A DNA stretch of 35,072 bases. Source: Methanobrevibacter sp. (GTDB taxonomy: Archaea; Methanobacteriota; Methanobacteria; Methanobacteriales; Methanobacteriaceae). Both the position numbers and the translations under genes were made by a program. Each line of letters starts with the position of its first letter. Positions within the stretch are counted from its first letter, which is position 1. The DNA lies in NCBI GenBank assembly GCA_024689425.1, contig JAILDN010000075.1, positions 1 to 35,072 on the forward strand, read 5' to 3'. Shown piece by piece: positions 2,224-10,157 of the stretch. Below the pieces are notes generated by a model. The model ran no database searches. It was given only the letters and a program-made list of their open reading frames with translations, and was not told the origin of the DNA.

Positions 2224-3090
2224 TTAGTAATGACTTTGTGGAGTCATTCCTAAATGATGATCTTCGCTCTTTTTACCTGGAATTCCAAAAGCATCCGCCC
2301 TGCATTGGGTACATGCTCTAAATACAGGTATTATCTCTTCAACTTCATCACGAACCTTTTCCATCATTGAACAGTCCGGACGAGGATAATGTTTCAATTT
2401 ACCTAATGGTATCAATGGTAAAACATTCATTAAAGCGGCTCCTCGTTTTTTGACTTCTTTTGCAATTTCAACAATGTGTTCGTCGTTTAATCCTGGAATT
2501 AAAACTGAATTTACTTTAACAACTATTCCATTAGCCGCTGCCTTTTCAACACCGTCTAATTGGTTTTTGATTAATATTTCAACAGCCTCATAATCTTTGT
2601 AAACTTTTCCTTCATATTTAATGAATGAATAAATATCTACTGCGATATCAGGATCAATTGCATTGATGGTCACAGTAACAGAGTTTACACCAAGTTCTGC
2701 AAGCCTATCAGCATATTTTGGAAGCAGTAATCCATTTGTACTCATACATTTAATTAAGTCCGGATGTTTATCAGCCATTTTTTCAAAGAATTCAAATGTT
2801 TCTTCATTAGCAAGAGAATCTCCAGGACCTGCTACTCCAACAACGGAAATTGGACCGTCTGCAGTAACATCATCTATATGAGCAATCGCATCGTCAGGTT
2901 TCATAATACAGCTAGTAACCCCCGGCCTATCTTCTTCATTGTTTATATCTCTTGTACAGAAGTTACAGAAGATATTACATTTTGGTGCGATAGGGACATG
3001 AGCTCTACCTACTTTATCATGCATTTTTTCATTAAAGCAAGGGTGTGCTCTAGTTATATGTGCAAATCTTGAACCTTTATGCTCATTCAT
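2224..3090 (-). CDS. nifB: NifB-type radical SAM FeMo-cofactor biosynthesis protein
   Basis: 288 residues from ATG 3090; a GTG nine bases upstream is possible, but GAGAGTGGT fits as a ribosome binding site for the ATG. NifB fuses two [4Fe-4S] clusters with carbide insertion into the 8Fe precursor (NifB-co) of nitrogenase cofactors. Visible features: HPCFNEKMHDKVGRAHVPIA (about 16-35), the radical SAM triad C38-C42-C45 in CNIFCNFC, ERPGVTSC-like RPGVTSC (C61), and the C-terminal CTQCRADAFGIPG. The length matches the short archaeal NifB without the NifX-like C-terminal domain. It is downstream of mmp17 with about 60 bases between and its own TATA box. No nifH, nifD, nifK, nifE or nifN is in the window, so the product may serve another enzyme. 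Family certain; role here open. Confidence 0.95.
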   Translation of the reverse strand: MNEHKGSRFAHITRAHPCFNEKMHDKVGRAHVPIAPKCNIFCNFCTRDINNEEDRPGVTSCIMKPDDAIAHIDDVTADGPISVVGVAGPGDSLANEETFEFFEKMADKHPDLIKCMSTNGLLLPKYADRLAELGVNSVTVTINAIDPDIAVDIYSFIKYEGKVYKDYEAVEILIKNQLDGVEKAAANGIVVKVNSVLIPGLNDEHIVEIAKEVKKRGAALMNVLPLIPLGKLKHYPRPDCSMMEKVRDEVEEIIPVFRACTQCRADAFGIPGKKSEDHHLGMTPQSHY

Positions 3091-3135
3091 AATAACCACT
3101 CTCTCTTTTTAATTTATAGTTATTTTATAACAAGT

Positions 3136-3146
3136 GTTATATATAC
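3136..3146 (-). promoter_or_regulatory. TATA box upstream of nifB
   Basis: On the minus strand AAAAGTATATATAAC lies between the mmp17 stop and nifB. The predicted start of transcription is near 3115, giving a leader of roughly 25 bases that holds the GAGAGTGG ribosome binding site. nifB can therefore be transcribed on its own as well as by read-through from the mmp cluster. Confidence 0.5.
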
Positions 3147-3150
3147 TTTT

Positions 3151-3714
3151 CTACATTCCATTATCTAATTCAGCTATATACTCATTAGCTTTTTCAATCC
3201 AAGAATCATAAATTAACTCATCAGTAGCTACAACAGCAACAATATCCTTAGTAGACATATCCTTAATTATCTTAAATCCTTCCGGCAAAATTCTGAATAT
3301 TGCATCGTAAATCCTTCTTTGAAGATTAGAATGAGGGTCATCAATAATCAAAGTTTCTAAATTCATTTGATTGCCCACCAATTCAATATTATATCTGGTT
3401 GGTTGATATATTTCATCTCTTGAATACATTCTCCATAATCTTTTTAAAATATTAGGAAGATAATTCTCATCTTCAATTAAAATACGAGTGACATCATCTG
3501 CCTTATCGTAATTAAAGCTAGCAACATCCTTAAATTGAACAGTGTTAGAAGTTTTTTTCATTTTAATAGCTAATATAAATACAGGATCATCAGGATTTAC
3601 AAAAGCTTTTAAATCATCAACAGAAGTACCTAACACTAAATCCTGAAAGATTTGTTTAATGATGATTTCATAAACCTCTGCACCTTTCTCATCATAGCAT
3701 TCAACTAACATCAA
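3151..3714 (-). CDS. mmp17: Methanogenesis marker protein 17
   Basis: 187 residues, beginning LVECYDEKGAEVYEIIIKQIFQDLVLG after the initiator. Recognised as the methanogenesis marker 17 family from its length, its overall sequence and its place at the end of the mmp3-6-5-15-17 run. Mmp17 has been reported as a component of the ATP-dependent methyl-coenzyme M reductase activation complex together with McrC, Mmp3, Mmp7 and the A2 ATPase (established knowledge, from memory). It is a soluble cytoplasmic protein with no cysteine cluster apart from one near the N-terminus; a region around LIIDDPHSNLQRRIYDAIFRILPEGFKII is rich in conserved-looking hydrophobics. Eleven bases separate it from mmp15, consistent with one operon. 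Two methionines open the frame; the second could also be the start. Confidence 0.85.
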   Translation of the reverse strand: MMLVECYDEKGAEVYEIIIKQIFQDLVLGTSVDDLKAFVNPDDPVFILAIKMKKTSNTVQFKDVASFNYDKADDVTRILIEDENYLPNILKRLWRMYSRDEIYQPTRYNIELVGNQMNLETLIIDDPHSNLQRRIYDAIFRILPEGFKIIKDMSTKDIVAVVATDELIYDSWIEKANEYIAELDNGM

Positions 3715-3725
3715 ACCAACTCTTC

Positions 3726-4967
3726 TTATTTGTTATCTTGTCTGTGTCCCATTCCTGATACAAGAAGAGCTGCACCAACAGCACCAATATGTTGAGAGTA
3801 TTCAGGAACGATAACTTCAATTCCACCTAAAGTTTCACTTACAGCTTCAACAAGACCTGAAATTAAACTAGTTCCTCCTACTTGTATCAATGGTTCACGA
3901 ATATCAATTTCCTGAAGTTGTTGTTCGTAAACTTGTTCAGAAACAGAGTGACATGCAGCCGCAGCCACATCAGCTTTAGATCCGCCTGCTGCAAGAGTAG
4001 TAACAAGGTCTTGAATACCAAATACAATACAGTATGAATTCAACATTGCTCTTCTCCAGTCACCTTGAACAGCTAAAGGACCAAGTTCAGTAATATCGAC
4101 ATCCAACCTGCGAGAAGTCATATCTAAAAATCTTCCAGACGCACCAGCACAGATACCACCCATAGTAAAGTTATCAGGAATACCATTATTAACAGTAATT
4201 ACCTTGTTATCCATACCACCAATATCTAATACAGTAGCTTCACCTTTTTGGCAGTCCGCCAAGTATACTGCACCTTTTGCATTAACAGACAATTCTTCCT
4301 GAATAAGTTCGGCTTTAAATTCTTCACCCATTGTGAACCTACCATAACCTGTAGTTCCAATACCGTCAACATCATCCCAACCATAATCAGTTTGAGAGAA
4401 TGCTTCAGCGGCCGCTGTTTTTGCAGATTCAATAATGTCTTTAGTAGAAGTCCAACCAGTTCCAATAACTTCGTTGTTTTCCATTAAAACAGCTTTTGTA
4501 GTTGTTGAACCTGAGTCTAAACCAAGAGTAAGACCTTCTTGTTTTTCACGAGCAAGAATGCTTCTACGAGTTACAGTAGTAGCTAATGCTTCCATACGGA
4601 TGAATAATTCATCAGCTTTTGTTCTTTCTGTAAATGAATAAGTAACAACAGGAATACGAGTATTATTCTGAATAAAACGTCTTACTTCATTTCTTACAAG
4701 TGCTGCTTCAGCACATCTAAAACAAGTAGCAATAAATACTGCATCAGGATTTGACCTACCTTCAACAATAGCCATCGCTCTTGCAATCATTAATTTTAAA
4801 CTTGAACTTTGAGCAGAAAACCCAAATTTCTCATAAGATTCGTCAATATAATCTAAATCAATTTCTGGAAGAATAATTTCTGCACCAAATTTATTAGCTG
4901 CTTTTTCAATTTCCTTTTGAATTCCACTATATTCAGTTCCACATGAAACTAAAGCAATTTTAACCAT
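3726..4967 (-). CDS. mmp15: Methanogenesis marker protein 15, HgdC/BadF-type ATPase
   Basis: 413 residues from ATG 4967, chosen because GAGGAGG sits 8-9 bases upstream; a longer frame from 4997 would start inside mmp5. Residues 1-135 form a separate N-terminal domain with C9, C82 and C85 (TCFRCAEA). From about 146 it is an acetate/sugar kinase-fold ATPase: [13 protein letters not shown] (phosphate 1), [12 protein letters not shown] (247-257, phosphate 2) and [10 protein letters not shown] (adenosine). C273 ([13 protein letters not shown]) and C313 (SYCIVFG) match the two cysteines that bridge a [4Fe-4S] cluster between subunits of HgdC-type dehydratase activators. By family analogy it could be an ATP-driven electron donor. 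It lies in the mmp3-6-5-15-17 operon. Exact role is not known to me. Confidence 0.9.
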
Positions 4968-4971
4968 ATTA

Positions 4972-5427
4972 TTATTCCTCCTCAGTAGCTTCTTCAAGTG
5001 AATCTACAAATTCATTTATTTTATTTACCATGACATATGTTTCATCTTGATTATCCGGATATTTAAGTTCTAAAACTGGAATACCCTTATTTCTAAGCAA
5101 GAAGATAGATAATTCATTAGTTCTTGCACAACCAATACATCCAAAACCATAAGGAGCACCATCAACAACAATAGCTGCTTCTGCTTCGTCTATTAACGGC
5201 CCAATAATTGACATTCTTCCACGAACCCCTGAAGGAACCTCAATAGCCGCATATTTAAGTCCTTTAATTGGGTCTTCTTCAGTGATATTCATTGGTGGAG
5301 AATCAATTTCTGGATCTTTGATTTTTTCCCTAATCTGTTTTTGAAGAACTAAAGGAGTGTGACCTTTTCTTTCAAGTAAATCTGCCAAAATTAATGAGTT
5401 TGGAGGATAAATAGCTATTTTAACCAT
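4972..5427 (-). CDS. mmp5: Methanogenesis marker protein 5
   Basis: 151 residues from ATG 5427. A GTG three codons upstream overlaps the ribosome binding site AGGTGA, so the ATG is preferred. The sequence [20 protein letters not shown] at the N-terminus and [20 protein letters not shown] in the middle, with a CxxC pair, fit the methanogenesis marker 5 family. The CxxC suggests metal or cluster binding (inference). The stop codon lies four bases before the mmp15 ATG and the mmp15 ribosome binding site is inside the mmp5 end, so translation is coupled. Function is unknown; occurrence is limited to methanogens and relatives that carry methyl-coenzyme M reductase. Confidence 0.85.
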
Positions 5428-5444
5428 ATTTTTCACCTATTTTT

Positions 5445-5909
5445 TTATTTTTCTAAACATTCATCCATAATTTTTTTGAATTCATCAACTTTAATTGGTT
5501 TTTTCTCTTCTACTGTTACTTCTTTAGGATTTTCTAAAGCTTCAGCAACATAACCAAGTATTGTGTACTCTTTTTCCATTTGATGGAATCCTTCCCTAGG
5601 CCCAAATCTATGACCCCTACATCTCCTTGGGTCACCTGGAGCAAAACCTCTTTCTTTAGTGAATATATGTGCAGGATCGAGTTTTCTAATCTCCTTAATA
5701 GCTTTGTAAACATCTTCCTTTTTTCCACTAATCATAGAACCATAACAAGTATTTTTAATTGTTAAAGGAAGACCAAGCATATGGAATTCACCTACAATCT
5801 CGCTTTCACTTACACGAGCTCCCGGTCCAAGAATAATCATGCGAGTAATTACATCCGGATCCCAATCTTCACTACTCATCTTTACTTTAGGACATAGATT
5901 CTCTGACAT
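5445..5909 (-). CDS. mmp6: Methanogenesis marker protein 6
   Basis: 154 residues. The core [20 protein letters not shown]...[16 protein letters not shown] and [22 protein letters not shown] are recognised as methanogenesis marker 6. The ATG at 5909 lies inside the last codons of mmp3, an overlap of 23 bases, with GGAG nine bases upstream; an internal methionine at 5879 would remove the overlap but has a weaker binding site. It is rich in arginine and histidine near residues 95-110. It is co-transcribed with mmp3 and mmp5. No enzymatic activity is established that I know of; association with methyl-coenzyme M reductase biology comes from phylogenetic distribution and operon context. Confidence 0.85.
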
Positions 5910-7428
5910 ATATTACAACTCCTTCTTTCATATCTTCGTAACCATTTGTATCTGAAACTATTTTACCAATAATATTTGTTGCTTTAAATGACTCGGCAGT
6001 TGGTCCAAATTCATGATGGGGTTCATATCTCACACCAATTAACCCGGCATTTTTTGCAGACATATTAGTAATACCAATTTCACACGCTTCTACAACATCA
6101 GTTGGGTTGTTTTCAGGTACAAGCCCTTTAGCAAGTTTTTTATCGCCTTCAAAAATAGTGATATGCATACCTGGCACTCCAAAATGAACTTTAATTTTAC
6201 CAACAGGATTTTCCAAAAGACCAGAAATAAATTTGAAATATTTAACTGACCTTGGTGCATTATCAACAAATTTGATTTCACACATTTCTTTAGGATTAAT
6301 GGCTTTTGTTACAACTTTTCCTTCTTTTAAAATATCAATAGTATGTATAGGAGACTGCTCAACAATTAATCCTTCATCATCAGTTACCCCTTCACGAACA
6401 TGCTCAACACCAGCTTCTGCCAATATCTTTTCGGCTTCTCCTTGGGAATGATTGAGTAAAAGCAATCTTTGTTGCTCAGATTTAACTGTTATGAAATCAT
6501 CCTTTTTAGCAATATCAATAATTTCCATTCCGGCAGTAATTTTTCCAACAGTAGTGTGATTTGGAGTTAAAACCCTATTTTCACGATAAACATACATTCT
6601 ACCTACGCCACTACCAGCATTTCTAATAGTAATGGTTCCTCTTACTCTCTGAGTAGTACTTTCTTTAGGTTTATCAATACCCTCTAATTCATAAAATCCT
6701 AAGAATGAATTTGAGTCAAAATTAACCTTTATTCTACTATCTTTAATTATTGAAAACAAGTGTTCAACACAGACAGGTGATGCATCATCAATTTCAAATG
6801 ATATGTAAGTATATAATTCATTACCTTCTTCTAGAACAGTGCTTAAATCTGAAATAGAAGCACTATCGGTTGTTGTACTTCTTTCAACGATTGGTTCAAT
6901 AGAAGTTACCACATCATCATCAGTTAATTTCGCTAAAGTCTTTTTACCACCAATTACGTGTGCAAAAATACCTTTATTGTATGGGGGTACACTGTACACA
7001 TTAGTGGTATTCTCTTTAAGGAGAATCAAGTGCGTTGACTCATTACTAAAACTAGATAAACTTAAAACAACATCCCCCTCATAATACTTGAATTCATCAG
7101 AGGTTGGTTCTAAATCCGTAACAATTGGCCCTATAGCGACTTCTGTGGAAGTAGACCATCTGATAGACAAATCAGCAAATTCCTCATATTGATTTTTCCA
7201 AACATCAACAATCGGTTGTGCCTCTTCATCTTCTGCTAATTCGATAATTATAGAACCTTTAGTTGTTTTTATTTTATATTTAGTAATATTCTTTTCCAGT
7301 TCCTTTTTACCTTTAATTAGACAAATAATACTACCAGGAGTATATGGGGCATTAGTTTCATCAATTACGTCTTGAATTGAAGAGCCTTCTGCCACATCAA
7401 TCTCTTTGCCATTAACTTTAATTAACAT
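5887..7428 (-). CDS. mmp3: Methanogenesis marker protein 3 (cyclophilin-like, UPF0288)
   Basis: 513 residues from ATG 7428, with GGGAGA six bases upstream; a TTG at 7440 is the only longer option. It begins [20 protein letters not shown], a small beta-grasp-like start, and continues through long beta-rich segments. [35 protein letters not shown] and [28 protein letters not shown] fit the UPF0288/Mmp3 family, annotated in places as peptidyl-prolyl isomerase-like. Mmp3 is reported in the methyl-coenzyme M reductase activation complex (from memory). It is the first gene of the minus-strand mmp cluster and has a TATA box about 45 bases upstream. No cysteine cluster is evident. Strong assignment from sequence and operon. 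Confidence 0.9.
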
Positions 7429-7544: not shown

Positions 7545-8528
7545 TTATAACTTAAAAACAGGGTTTTTTTCTTGATTAAAAACTTCAACCCTTTTATCTT
7601 CGTAAGTTAAGTATAATGAATTAGTGTTGGTTACCTCCCCAACAACATTAGATTCAATAGAATATTTAGCCAAATATTCTTTAATAAACTCACATTTATC
7701 ATCTGAAGCAGTAAATACAAATCCGGAACCAGGATATGATTTTAACCAATCATTCCAAGGCATATTTTCATTGATAGGGATGTCTAAAAGATTAACCTCA
7801 GCACCTTTACCTGAAGTTTCTAAAAGCATTTCCAAAGTTCCGAGAATTCCAGGATTTGAAATATCCTTCCCCGATTTAATATAATCATGCTCCGCCAAAT
7901 ACTGAACAGCAGTAATTTGATCTTGAACTAATTGCGCATCCTTATCATATGTGGTGTCCCAATTAAGACTAAACATCTCATGAGGTTTTCCGTCCAAATC
8001 AATGGCTACGATAATCTTATCTCCAACTTCGGCACCGAAACTGGTAATTAATTTATCCTTTTGTGCAATCCCAACAATTGCTACACCTAAAGAGTCACAA
8101 TCGGCATCCGGATGCAAGTGTCCTCCAACCATCGGAACACCAAATTTTAAACATCCGTCTTTTATTCCAGTTAATAACTCTTCATAAATCTCATCATTGT
8201 TAATAGACATTATATTAACCATAGCCAAAGGTTTTCCGCCCATTGCAGCAATATCATTAACATTGACTAAAACAGAACAATAACCTGCCCAATATGGATT
8301 TACATTCATTATTTGACCCCATATTCCATCGGCAGCTACTAAAATAACTTGATTATTACCAATATCAACAGCTGATGCATCATCACCAATATCAATGACC
8401 ACATCGCCTGAAACATTATATGATTCACTTAAAAGGTTTATTACATTATCGATAGAGCTTTTACGTGAAACACCTTCAAACTCTTGTATTTCATGCACAA
8501 GATTTTCAAAATCTAAAATAAAACACAC
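7545..8528 (-). CDS. mmp2: Methanogenesis marker protein 2 (AIR synthase-related)
   Basis: 327 residues with the AIR synthase/HypE/ThiL fold. VVIDIGDDASAVDIG and ILVAADGIWG (about 42-70) resemble the ATP-binding N-terminal domain, followed by VNVNDIAAMGGKPLAMVNIMS (about 88-108) and GVPMVGGHLHPDAD (about 130-143). It lacks the C-terminal cysteine of HypE. The length and N-terminal EFEGVSRKSSI fit methanogenesis marker 2. Start is uncertain: the GTG at 8528 overlaps the best ribosome binding site (AAGGAAGTG), and no ATG lies nearby downstream. The upstream DUF2117-like gene ends four bases before, so coupling is likely. By fold it should bind ATP and activate a phosphate or carboxylate substrate; the true substrate is unknown. 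Confidence 0.85.
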   Translation of the reverse strand: MCFILDFENLVHEIQEFEGVSRKSSIDNVINLLSESYNVSGDVVIDIGDDASAVDIGNNQVILVAADGIWGQIMNVNPYWAGYCSVLVNVNDIAAMGGKPLAMVNIMSINNDEIYEELLTGIKDGCLKFGVPMVGGHLHPDADCDSLGVAIVGIAQKDKLITSFGAEVGDKIIVAIDLDGKPHEMFSLNWDTTYDKDAQLVQDQITAVQYLAEHDYIKSGKDISNPGILGTLEMLLETSGKGAEVNLLDIPINENMPWNDWLKSYPGSGFVFTASDDKCEFIKEYLAKYSIESNVVGEVTNTNSLYLTYEDKRVEVFNQEKNPVFKL

Positions 8529-8532
8529 TTCC

Positions 8533-9654
8533 TTAAATTTTGTTAATGTTATATTTACAATTCTTATTATTTATTATTTCAACAATTTTATTTTCTAAAT
8601 CGGTAATTGATTTATACTCATTTGAATCAATTAATTCCTCATCATTTTCAAAGATTATCTCATGAATCAAACCACCAATTACATCATCAAAACCACTTTC
8701 AAGTTCAAATAATACGGAATTTTTAGATTTAAATCCGCTTTCAACGACTTTATCCAAATCTCCATCAGTGATTCCTATTATGGGAATATTAAAACGATAT
8801 AAAATGTCTGATGCAACCAAAGTAGTATCATCCCCAATTGTTATTACAACCGAAAAATCTTTAAATTTGTAAACATCTTCACCAGCATGGTCTAAAAATC
8901 CAACTTTAAATTCATTTGATTTTTTATTTTCTAAAACTCTTGGTTTAACTTTAGATTTTCTTAAAAGGCCTGTTTTTACAATAGCTGAATTTAAATCAAC
9001 ATAGCCCAGTTTTTCAACACCATGTGGCTTTATAACTCCTCCAATTATCTCAACGATATGATTATCTTTTGAAACTAAAACTAATTTATCTGAAGTTGAT
9101 TTACCAATGACAACACCATTGACCATAATATTCTCATCTGGACTTACACCATGTATAATCCTTTGAGTTTCACTATCATTGTCGTTTTTAATATGGGTCT
9201 CATATACTTCCTCAGGAGTAACAATGTTTAAATTTAATTTACTGGCAAACTCCCCTGTTAACTCTGATTTAGAAGCCCAATTAATCACACTACCGTCATT
9301 TTCACCGGGCCTTTCAATTTGAATGATTGGAATATCGTTATTGGTTATTTTTTCTTTATAATGAGTATAAACTTTATATCCGAAAACTTGACCTGTCGTT
9401 GAGGACTTTCCATAATTTAAGAGAAAAATAATATCAACATTATCATCATGAAAAATTTTTAAAGAATCACTAGGGACCAGTTTCTTTGAGATATCTATAA
9501 TATCTTCTAGGGAATTGTCAATGACGGCAGTTCTACCCATTGTTCCGCCAAGCCTTACTGAAATATCCCCATATTCTTTAATTAAATTAATTAATTTTAA
9601 TGCATAACCGGAATCAATGATGTTTGGACCGTGAACCACTATTCCAATTTTCAT
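8533..9654 (-). CDS. DUF2117-like conserved archaeal protein
   Basis: 373 residues beginning MKIGIVVHGPNIIDSGYALK, which I associate with the DUF2117 family of methanogens; this is recognition from memory. The N-terminal third carries VRLGGTMGRTAVID and FLLNYGKSSTTGQVFG; the middle has IPIIQIERPGENDGSVINWA; the last third has FSVVITIGDDTTLVASDILYRFNIPIIGITDGD, which resembles nucleotide- or sugar-phosphate-binding Rossmann-type segments with a DD pair. No membrane segment or signal peptide. The ATG overlaps the nob1 stop by four bases (ATGA) and the stop is four bases before mmp2, so the three genes form one transcript. Function unknown; the shared operon suggests a core methanogen role. Confidence 0.7.
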   Translation of the reverse strand: MKIGIVVHGPNIIDSGYALKLINLIKEYGDISVRLGGTMGRTAVIDNSLEDIIDISKKLVPSDSLKIFHDDNVDIIFLLNYGKSSTTGQVFGYKVYTHYKEKITNNDIPIIQIERPGENDGSVINWASKSELTGEFASKLNLNIVTPEEVYETHIKNDNDSETQRIIHGVSPDENIMVNGVVIGKSTSDKLVLVSKDNHIVEIIGGVIKPHGVEKLGYVDLNSAIVKTGLLRKSKVKPRVLENKKSNEFKVGFLDHAGEDVYKFKDFSVVITIGDDTTLVASDILYRFNIPIIGITDGDLDKVVESGFKSKNSVLFELESGFDDVIGGLIHEIIFENDEELIDSNEYKSITDLENKIVEIINNKNCKYNINKI

Positions 9655-10157
9655 TCTTTCACCTTAATTCTTTTTTTAAATATCCTGGATCCACAAACAT
9701 CACAATCATCAAAAGGATAATTTTCCTCAAATTCTTTTTTGCAACCTTGACAAACTTTTTTCCAATTATATATTTCCTTGATTCCATCAGTTATAATACC
9801 AGAATAAGGAATATCCATTATTTTTAACGTATTTTGGATAGTATAATCATCACTAATTACCTTAACATCTTTTCCCTCATCTTTAAGCATTAATGCAAGA
9901 GCTATTATCTTTTTATCAGGCAGCGACAATCTTAAAATGTCACCAGATTTTGAGATGATTCTTTCAGTTTTTTCAAGGTATTCATCAGTTATATCCTGAA
10001 CTGTTAACTTTCCATCGTCAACTGCACTATCATATAACATTCTAGATTCGAAATCTTTTATTTCTGCAGTAATTTCTGGAACCGTATAGTTATTCTTTGA
10101 TGTTGGATGAAAACCGTTGATGAATGCTGATGCATCCAAAATATAAAAAATTTCCAT
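9651..10157 (-). CDS. nob1: Endoribonuclease Nob1 (PIN domain plus zinc ribbon)
   Basis: 168 residues. The PIN nuclease domain starts FYILDASAFINGF (D8) and has further acids at E28/E32, D81 and D103-D104 (VISDDYTIQN). A C-terminal zinc ribbon has C136-x2-C139 and C152-x2-C155. This arrangement is Nob1, which cuts the 3' end of pre-16S rRNA during small-subunit maturation. Length is typical of archaeal Nob1. It is the first gene of a minus-strand operon with the DUF2117-like gene and mmp2, overlapping the next gene by four bases. An AT-rich TATA-like stretch near 10185 would give a nearly leaderless transcript. Confidence 0.92.
   Translation of the reverse strand: MEIFYILDASAFINGFHPTSKNNYTVPEITAEIKDFESRMLYDSAVDDGKLTVQDITDEYLEKTERIISKSGDILRLSLPDKKIIALALMLKDEGKDVKVISDDYTIQNTLKIMDIPYSGIITDGIKEIYNWKKVCQGCKKEFEENYPFDDCDVCGSRIFKKRIKVKE

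Follow-up and report, generated by a model that had tools for sequence, protein, structure and literature searches.

nifB and the marker genes at the locus

Six genes, nifB and the methanogenesis marker genes mmp3, mmp6, mmp5, mmp15 and mmp17, were verified on the minus strand of the window, the whole stretch of 35,072 bp analysed here, which is one entire contig of a 1.75-Mb genome (94.2% complete). The nearest relatives of this genome are gut Methanobrevibacter. A sixth marker gene, mmp2, directly upstream of mmp3, was absent from the preliminary description of the locus. The genes are transcribed in the order mmp2, mmp3, mmp6, mmp5, mmp15, mmp17, nifB, and every marker gene scores above the curated NCBIfam cut-off of its own family. 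The features are listed below.

2224..3090, minus strand: nifB, stand-alone radical-SAM NifB of 288 aa (ATG at 3090, coding 2227-3090, stop 2224-2226)
3091..3150, minus strand: mmp17-nifB spacer, with a TATA-like box (3138-3145) and a perfect dyad TATAAC-N4-GTTATA (3126-3141); probably nifB's own promoter/operator
3151..3714, minus strand: mmp17, MCR activation complex subunit (TIGR03291, 174 bits against a cut-off of 67, E=2e-51; PDB 8s7v chain G, E=1.5e-21)
3726..4964, minus strand: mmp15, CoA-dehydratase-activase-like ATPase (TIGR03286, 719 bits, E=2e-216)
4972..5427, minus strand: mmp5 (TIGR03271, 243 bits, E=9e-73)
5445..5909, minus strand: mmp6, overlapping the end of mmp3 (TIGR03272, 159 bits, E=4e-47)
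5887..7428, minus strand: mmp3, MCR activation complex subunit (TIGR03268, 589 bits, E=9e-177; PDB 8s7v chain J, E=2.8e-89)
7545..8528, minus strand: mmp2, AIR-synthase/SelD-like, just upstream of mmp3 (TIGR03267, 428 bits, E=3e-128)

In a profile search, NifB matched TIGR01290 with E=1.5e-90 (304 bits). The cut-off of this model, 343.65 bits, is reached neither by the window protein nor by any genome in the class Methanobacteria; the model spans a bacterial C-terminal extension absent from archaeal NifB. With phmmer, PDB entries 7bi7, 7jmb and 7jma were matched at E~1e-141 and 70% identity. Ligands of the SAM, K1 and K2 clusters were assigned after PMC7145814. The radical SAM CX3CX2C motif (C38, C42, C45) is invariant in 107/107 aligned NifB, and the ligands of the auxiliary clusters K1 and K2 (C18, H31, C115, C260, C263) are invariant in 106-107 of the 107 rows. 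H31, the K1 histidine, corresponds to the essential H43 of M. acetivorans. C63 and C264 of the M. acetivorans enzyme correspond to N51 and V250 in the window protein, and the C264 site is V also in the crystallised NifB of M. thermautotrophicus. The latter (PDB 7bi7, 7jmb), from the same class, is likewise a stand-alone radical SAM protein of 288 aa with the same cluster ligands. Judged from the alignment, the catalytic ligands of the window NifB are intact. A horizontal origin was rejected, as the protein falls inside the Methanobrevibacter relatives in the tree.

The preliminary description had reported a full-length short NifB with radical SAM cysteines behind five mmp genes on the same strand, and the profile matches and ligands bear this out. 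It had also seen no nitrogenase genes in view, which now extends to the entire 94.2%-complete genome: the search for nifH, nifD, nifK, nifE and nifN with PF00148 and PF00142 profiles found none of these genes and no nif operon. The sole PF00148 (NifD/K/E/N family) match is CfbD (TIGR03282, 520 bits), and the best, and sole full-length, PF00142 (NifH family) match is CfbC (NF033200, 427 bits); both are F430 synthesis proteins. The assembly may lack about 6% of the genome.

Linkage of mmp17 and nifB in the class Methanobacteria

The neighbourhood of nifB was surveyed in 115 genomes of the class, each at least 85% complete. nifB was detected in 112 and mmp17 in 113 of them. Wherever both genes lie on one contig (106/106 genomes, four families), nifB stands directly downstream of mmp17 on the same strand; since all 106 keep this order, chance is excluded as its cause. 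The adjacency is thus not limited to the one strain in which it was first noticed. Eight further genomes have at least one of the two genes; several of the matches in these lie at contig ends, and in three genomes of one genus, with nifB and mmp17 on different contigs, the separation may be real. An apparent co-loss of nifB, mmp17 and mmp15 in a complete 1.77-Mb Methanosphaera genome, the ninth outside the 106, was rejected as an artefact: shortly after mmp3, 11.9 kb of the sequence are masked as N.

The linkage is kept in many genomes with little or no sign of nitrogenase. Exactly one PF00148 gene is present in 69/115 genomes and none was found in 4 more; at most one occurs in 71 of the 106 genomes with the adjacency. 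Two additional PF00148 genes occur in some of the Methanobrevibacter-like relatives, and several in Methanothermobacter-like and other genomes. Methanothermobacter-like genomes resemble the window in having nifB after mmp17, in their case only a few bases away, but most of them carry several PF00148 genes where the window genome has cfbD only.

In three Methanosphaera genomes, nitrogenase-like component I genes and a gene for a NifH-like protein are immediately followed by a second nifB. This copy groups with the mmp17-linked Methanosphaera copies (100/99 support), and because both share the Methanosphaera clade, the tree points to a duplication. The mmp17-linked NifB is retained alongside the copy in the nitrogenase-like operon, as would be expected of an old copy that serves a different client.

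The distance between the two genes varies within the class. Gaps of 2-6 bp, which suggest translational coupling, are found in Methanothermobacter-like and Methanothermus-like genomes. Several Methanosphaera have 12-37 bp between the two genes, Methanobrevibacter-like genomes have 57-72 bp, and other genomes have 165-457 bp. The perfect dyad in the window spacer reads TATAACACTTGTTATA. Its arms are kept at the same place in nine close loci (the window and eight more), while its centre varies. Over 42 related loci with 57-72-bp spacers, the TATA box and the motif block that follows it are 0.889 identical, against 0.575 at nifB 4-fold sites. As the spacer block is more conserved than 4-fold degenerate sites, it is very probable that nifB is expressed from a regulated promoter of its own in the Methanobrevibacter relatives; given that promoter, co-transcription with mmp17 through 3091-3150 is doubtful in this genus. 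Consistent with a separate promoter, nifB of M. ruminantium was up by log2 2.58 under lauric acid, marker 12 being the only marker gene that a search found among the changed genes (PMC5816558). Both the promoter in the Methanobrevibacter relatives and this expression change count against a supply role of NifB in MCR activation.

No NrpR-type nitrogen operators were found in 105 mmp17-nifB spacers. A scan of 0.8 Mb of one relative with the nifB promoter motif gave a sole good intergenic match, upstream of a DUF2097 gene that comes after fwdA-fwdC-like genes. Equating this gene with DUF2098, an activation complex subunit, was rejected, as Pfam distinguishes the two.

NifB and Mmp2 in a second phylum

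A second survey took in 391 genomes from the phylum to which a Methanofollis relative belongs. mmp17 was found in 242, NifB in 251, both in 237 and neither in 135. NifB is thus present in 237/242 mmp17-bearing genomes (Fisher p~4e-81, uncorrected for relatedness), and 64 of the 237 genomes with both carry at most one PF00148 gene. The other five mmp17-bearing genomes gave no NifB match, a point against the supply role. The expectation that nifB is always present holds nearly throughout, in 112/115 genomes of the class and 237/242 mmp17-bearing genomes here, with or without nitrogenase.

Adjacency of the two genes, by comparison, stands for the class (106/106) and not for the second phylum: in 81 genomes with both positions, 0/40 same-contig pairs of nifB and mmp17 lie within 50 kb. 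That the two are never close in this phylum is a counterpoint to a supply role of NifB. In Methanofollis the mmp3-6-5-15-17 cluster is followed by mmp7, at the place where the class Methanobacteria has nifB.

nifB has another marker gene as neighbour in this phylum. About 40 of 85 NifB neighbourhoods (39 by a strict rule) show nifB followed by mmp2 on the same strand, usually at less than 100 bp. Of one NifB clade, all 21 dereplicated rows that could be tested show the pairing, and of the other clade 0/28; mmp2 stands directly after nifB in Methanosarcina-type genomes. NifB, or an acceptor of its product, adjoins marker genes differently by lineage.

A direct partnership of Mmp2 with NifB would explain both nifB-mmp2 in one phylum and the shared mmp2-mmp3-6-5-15-17 cluster in another. 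We infer a part for Mmp2 in L-cluster supply. A more specific proposal is that the conserved neighbourhoods form a dedicated L-cluster supply module in which Mmp2, AIR-synthase/SelD-like and ATP-dependent, works directly with NifB, for example in sulfur activation for the ninth sulfide or in cluster loading onto McrC/Mmp7; this we put forward tentatively, as a rather unlikely possibility. The pairing is a first lead for Mmp2, an uncharacterised and widespread methanogen protein. The list of methanogen-specific genes by Kaster et al. 2011 (PMC3087415) already includes homologues of NifB and of SelD, the latter probably Mmp2; the passage with the list gives neither function nor linkage.

NifB and the activation of methyl-coenzyme M reductase

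In M. maripaludis, ATP-dependent activation of MCR is carried out by a complex of McrC, Mmp7, Mmp17, Mmp3 and component A2. Three 8Fe clusters shaped like L-clusters sit in this complex where McrC and Mmp7, which ligate them, border on Mmp17 (PMC12176620). The preliminary description, which had placed Mmp3 and Mmp17 in an ATP-driven complex with nitrogenase-cofactor-like clusters, agrees with that report. Homologues of Mmp3 and Mmp17 are encoded directly upstream of the window nifB, whereas mcrC and mmp7 lie outside the window; the cluster ligands of their products are H49, H118, C12 and C55 in McrC and C143 and H84 in Mmp7. The same report (Nature 2025) calls NifB indispensable to methanogens, including those that have no nitrogenase, and holds that it probably takes part in forming the clusters of the complex, whose central carbide is short of spectroscopic proof; its passages on this subject do not mention nifB-mmp gene linkage.

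It is highly likely that the window protein is an ordinary archaeal NifB, inherited vertically, whose main job is to make [8Fe-9S-C] L-clusters for the ATP-driven, Ni-F430-reducing complex that activates MCR. Two [4Fe-4S] clusters (K1, K2) on NifB, a SAM-derived carbide and a ninth sulfide would yield the L-cluster, a step with literature evidence from close relatives and, here, with ligands read from the sequence. The L-cluster would then be handed to McrC and Mmp7 by a presumed transfer for which no carrier is known. With Mmp17, Mmp3 and component A2, McrC and Mmp7 would carry very-low-potential electrons to F430; structure and ATP dependence of the complex are published and the electron path is proposed (PMC12176620). 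Membership in one supply chain would place nifB after mmp3-6-5-15-17. In genomes with nitrogenase, the same NifB, or the duplicated second copy in Methanosphaera, would feed that enzyme too, and NifB probably does serve nitrogenase where it is present. The claim that NifB here supplies the activation complex rather than nitrogenase is well supported by linkage and distribution; in those relatives that do have a nitrogenase, adjacency by itself leaves room for NifB to serve that enzyme as well.

NifB might instead be kept for a nitrogenase or nitrogenase-like reductase that is unseen in the window or in an incomplete assembly, the mmp neighbourhood being incidental. The assembly is indeed 94.2% complete, extra PF00148 genes occur in some Methanobrevibacter-like, Methanothermobacter-like and other genomes, and M. 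thermautotrophicus NifB yields a nitrogenase cofactor precursor in vitro (PMC5715403). Yet NifB is found in 112/115 class genomes though 69/115 have one PF00148 gene, the single such match of the window genome is CfbD, and the nitrogenase-like operon of three Methanosphaera genomes brings its own NifB, which makes this explanation improbable. Only a little less probable is that the adjacency is the frozen, functionally meaningless gene order of one old clade and that NifB does something else in methanogenesis. Such a reading would accommodate a mmp17-nifB linkage seen, of the two groups surveyed, only in the class Methanobacteria, the mmp17-mmp7 order of Methanofollis and the separate regulation of nifB in part of the class. 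It sits poorly with an order intact over four families, which would be unlikely without selection, with the independent linkage of NifB to the marker gene mmp2 in another phylum, and with an activation complex that contains exactly the cluster type of NifB (PMC12176620).

A NifB-family radical SAM enzyme could also modify MCR or a marker protein post-translationally without cluster synthesis, as the radical SAM marker Mmp10, to which the window NifB is weakly similar, modifies MCR according to its NCBIfam name. Here the NifB-specific ligands C18, H31, C115, C260 and C263 are retained, and the protein is 70% identical to the M. thermautotrophicus enzyme, for which carbide insertion in vitro is reported (Fay et al. 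2015, as cited in PMC5715403); of the alternatives this one is by far the least probable.

Supply of the MCR activation complex by NifB is not a new interpretation, having been proposed in PMC12176620. Gene order, co-occurrence and duplication agree with that proposal, and the linkage provides independent genomic support for the role in methanogenesis put forward in 2025. The class-wide mmp17-nifB linkage and the NifB-Mmp2 pairing seem new: no report of either was found in the open-access literature, subscription papers being mostly outside the search, and priority is not claimed. Should NifB indeed supply MCR activation, almost all methane of biological origin relies on the carbide-cluster chemistry of nitrogen fixation, and this chemistry would predate nitrogenase. 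NifB would also be a possible target for methane inhibition in rumen methanogens, the group that the window resembles. The linkage offers test cases in non-diazotrophs with nifB as the only L-cluster gene, in species with mmp17 and nifB nearly touching, and in Methanosphaera with two specialised NifB copies.

Elsewhere among methanogens, nifB of Methanocaldococcus sp. FS406-22 lies outside the nif cluster, as the window nifB lies away from any, and its authors suggest an additional unknown function (PMC8809328). In Methanothermococcus fixing N2, nifB rose by log2 1.8 against 7.0-8.8 for nifI1I2HDKX (PMC9765008), a rise that fits expression without diazotrophy.

Gene order around nifB and mmp2

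In the window, two genes lie directly upstream of mmp2, and an open frame faces nifB:
8533-10157, a DUF2117 protein (373 aa) and a PRK12496-family protein (168 aa)
1561-2211, a 216-aa open frame, convergent with nifB

Most relatives share this gene order. The 216-aa frame was assigned to no confident family; its weak match to EcoEI_R_C falls below the cut-off. In Methanofollis the marker cluster (L180:473-5657) reads mmp3-6-5-15-17-mmp7, and Mmp7, which binds the L-cluster, occupies the slot that is held by nifB in Methanobacteria. In one NifB clade of a second phylum, mmp2 is placed directly 3' of nifB on the same strand in all 21 of 21 testable dereplicated rows:
L184:4307-7282, nifB-mmp2 pair, same strand
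L185:6800-8816, nifB-mmp2 pair, same strand
L187-L286, further nifB-mmp2 pairs among these loci, same strand
Putative queC/queD/queE-like (queuosine-synthesis) genes are found 5' of the pair in this clade.

NifB apart from mmp17 and nitrogenase-like operons

Six small genomes of 1.0-1.6 Mb (G123, G132, G141, G148, G154 and G160) carry a divergent NifB-like match (E 1e-57 to 1e-73) together with neither mmp17 nor a PF00148 protein. The match represents a NifB-like enzyme without a known client. Conversely, no NifB match was obtained in five genomes with mmp17 (G165, G293, G301, G390 and G414), which may be assembly gaps or real exceptions. Loss of mmp6 to nifB in G094, a complete Methanosphaera genome, is only imitated, as a masked N run (L171:1-11901) exactly covers that place. 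Nitrogenase-like operons are present in Methanosphaera genomes:
L173:7168-12176
L174:6313-11193
L175:943-5949
They encode two NifD/K-like proteins, a NifH-like protein and a second NifB; a PF00148 open frame from the genome search can span both NifD/K-like genes.

The probable nifB promoter and its motif

The mmp17-nifB spacer contains a probable nifB promoter conserved between the window (3091-3150) and the spacers of 45 relatives. Its operator-like motif takes the form TATAAC-N4-GTTATA in the group to which the window belongs and TTTGTTCGTATCAATACAAA in the others. In G036, a relative searched for the motif over 0.8 Mb, it also precedes a second DUF2097 gene (L318:3192-3548), located 3' of fwdA-fwdC-like genes, and a mixed form precedes a HEAT-repeat protein gene (G036:C1:691428). 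Lauric acid induces both nifB and a HEAT-repeat protein in M. ruminantium (PMC5816558).
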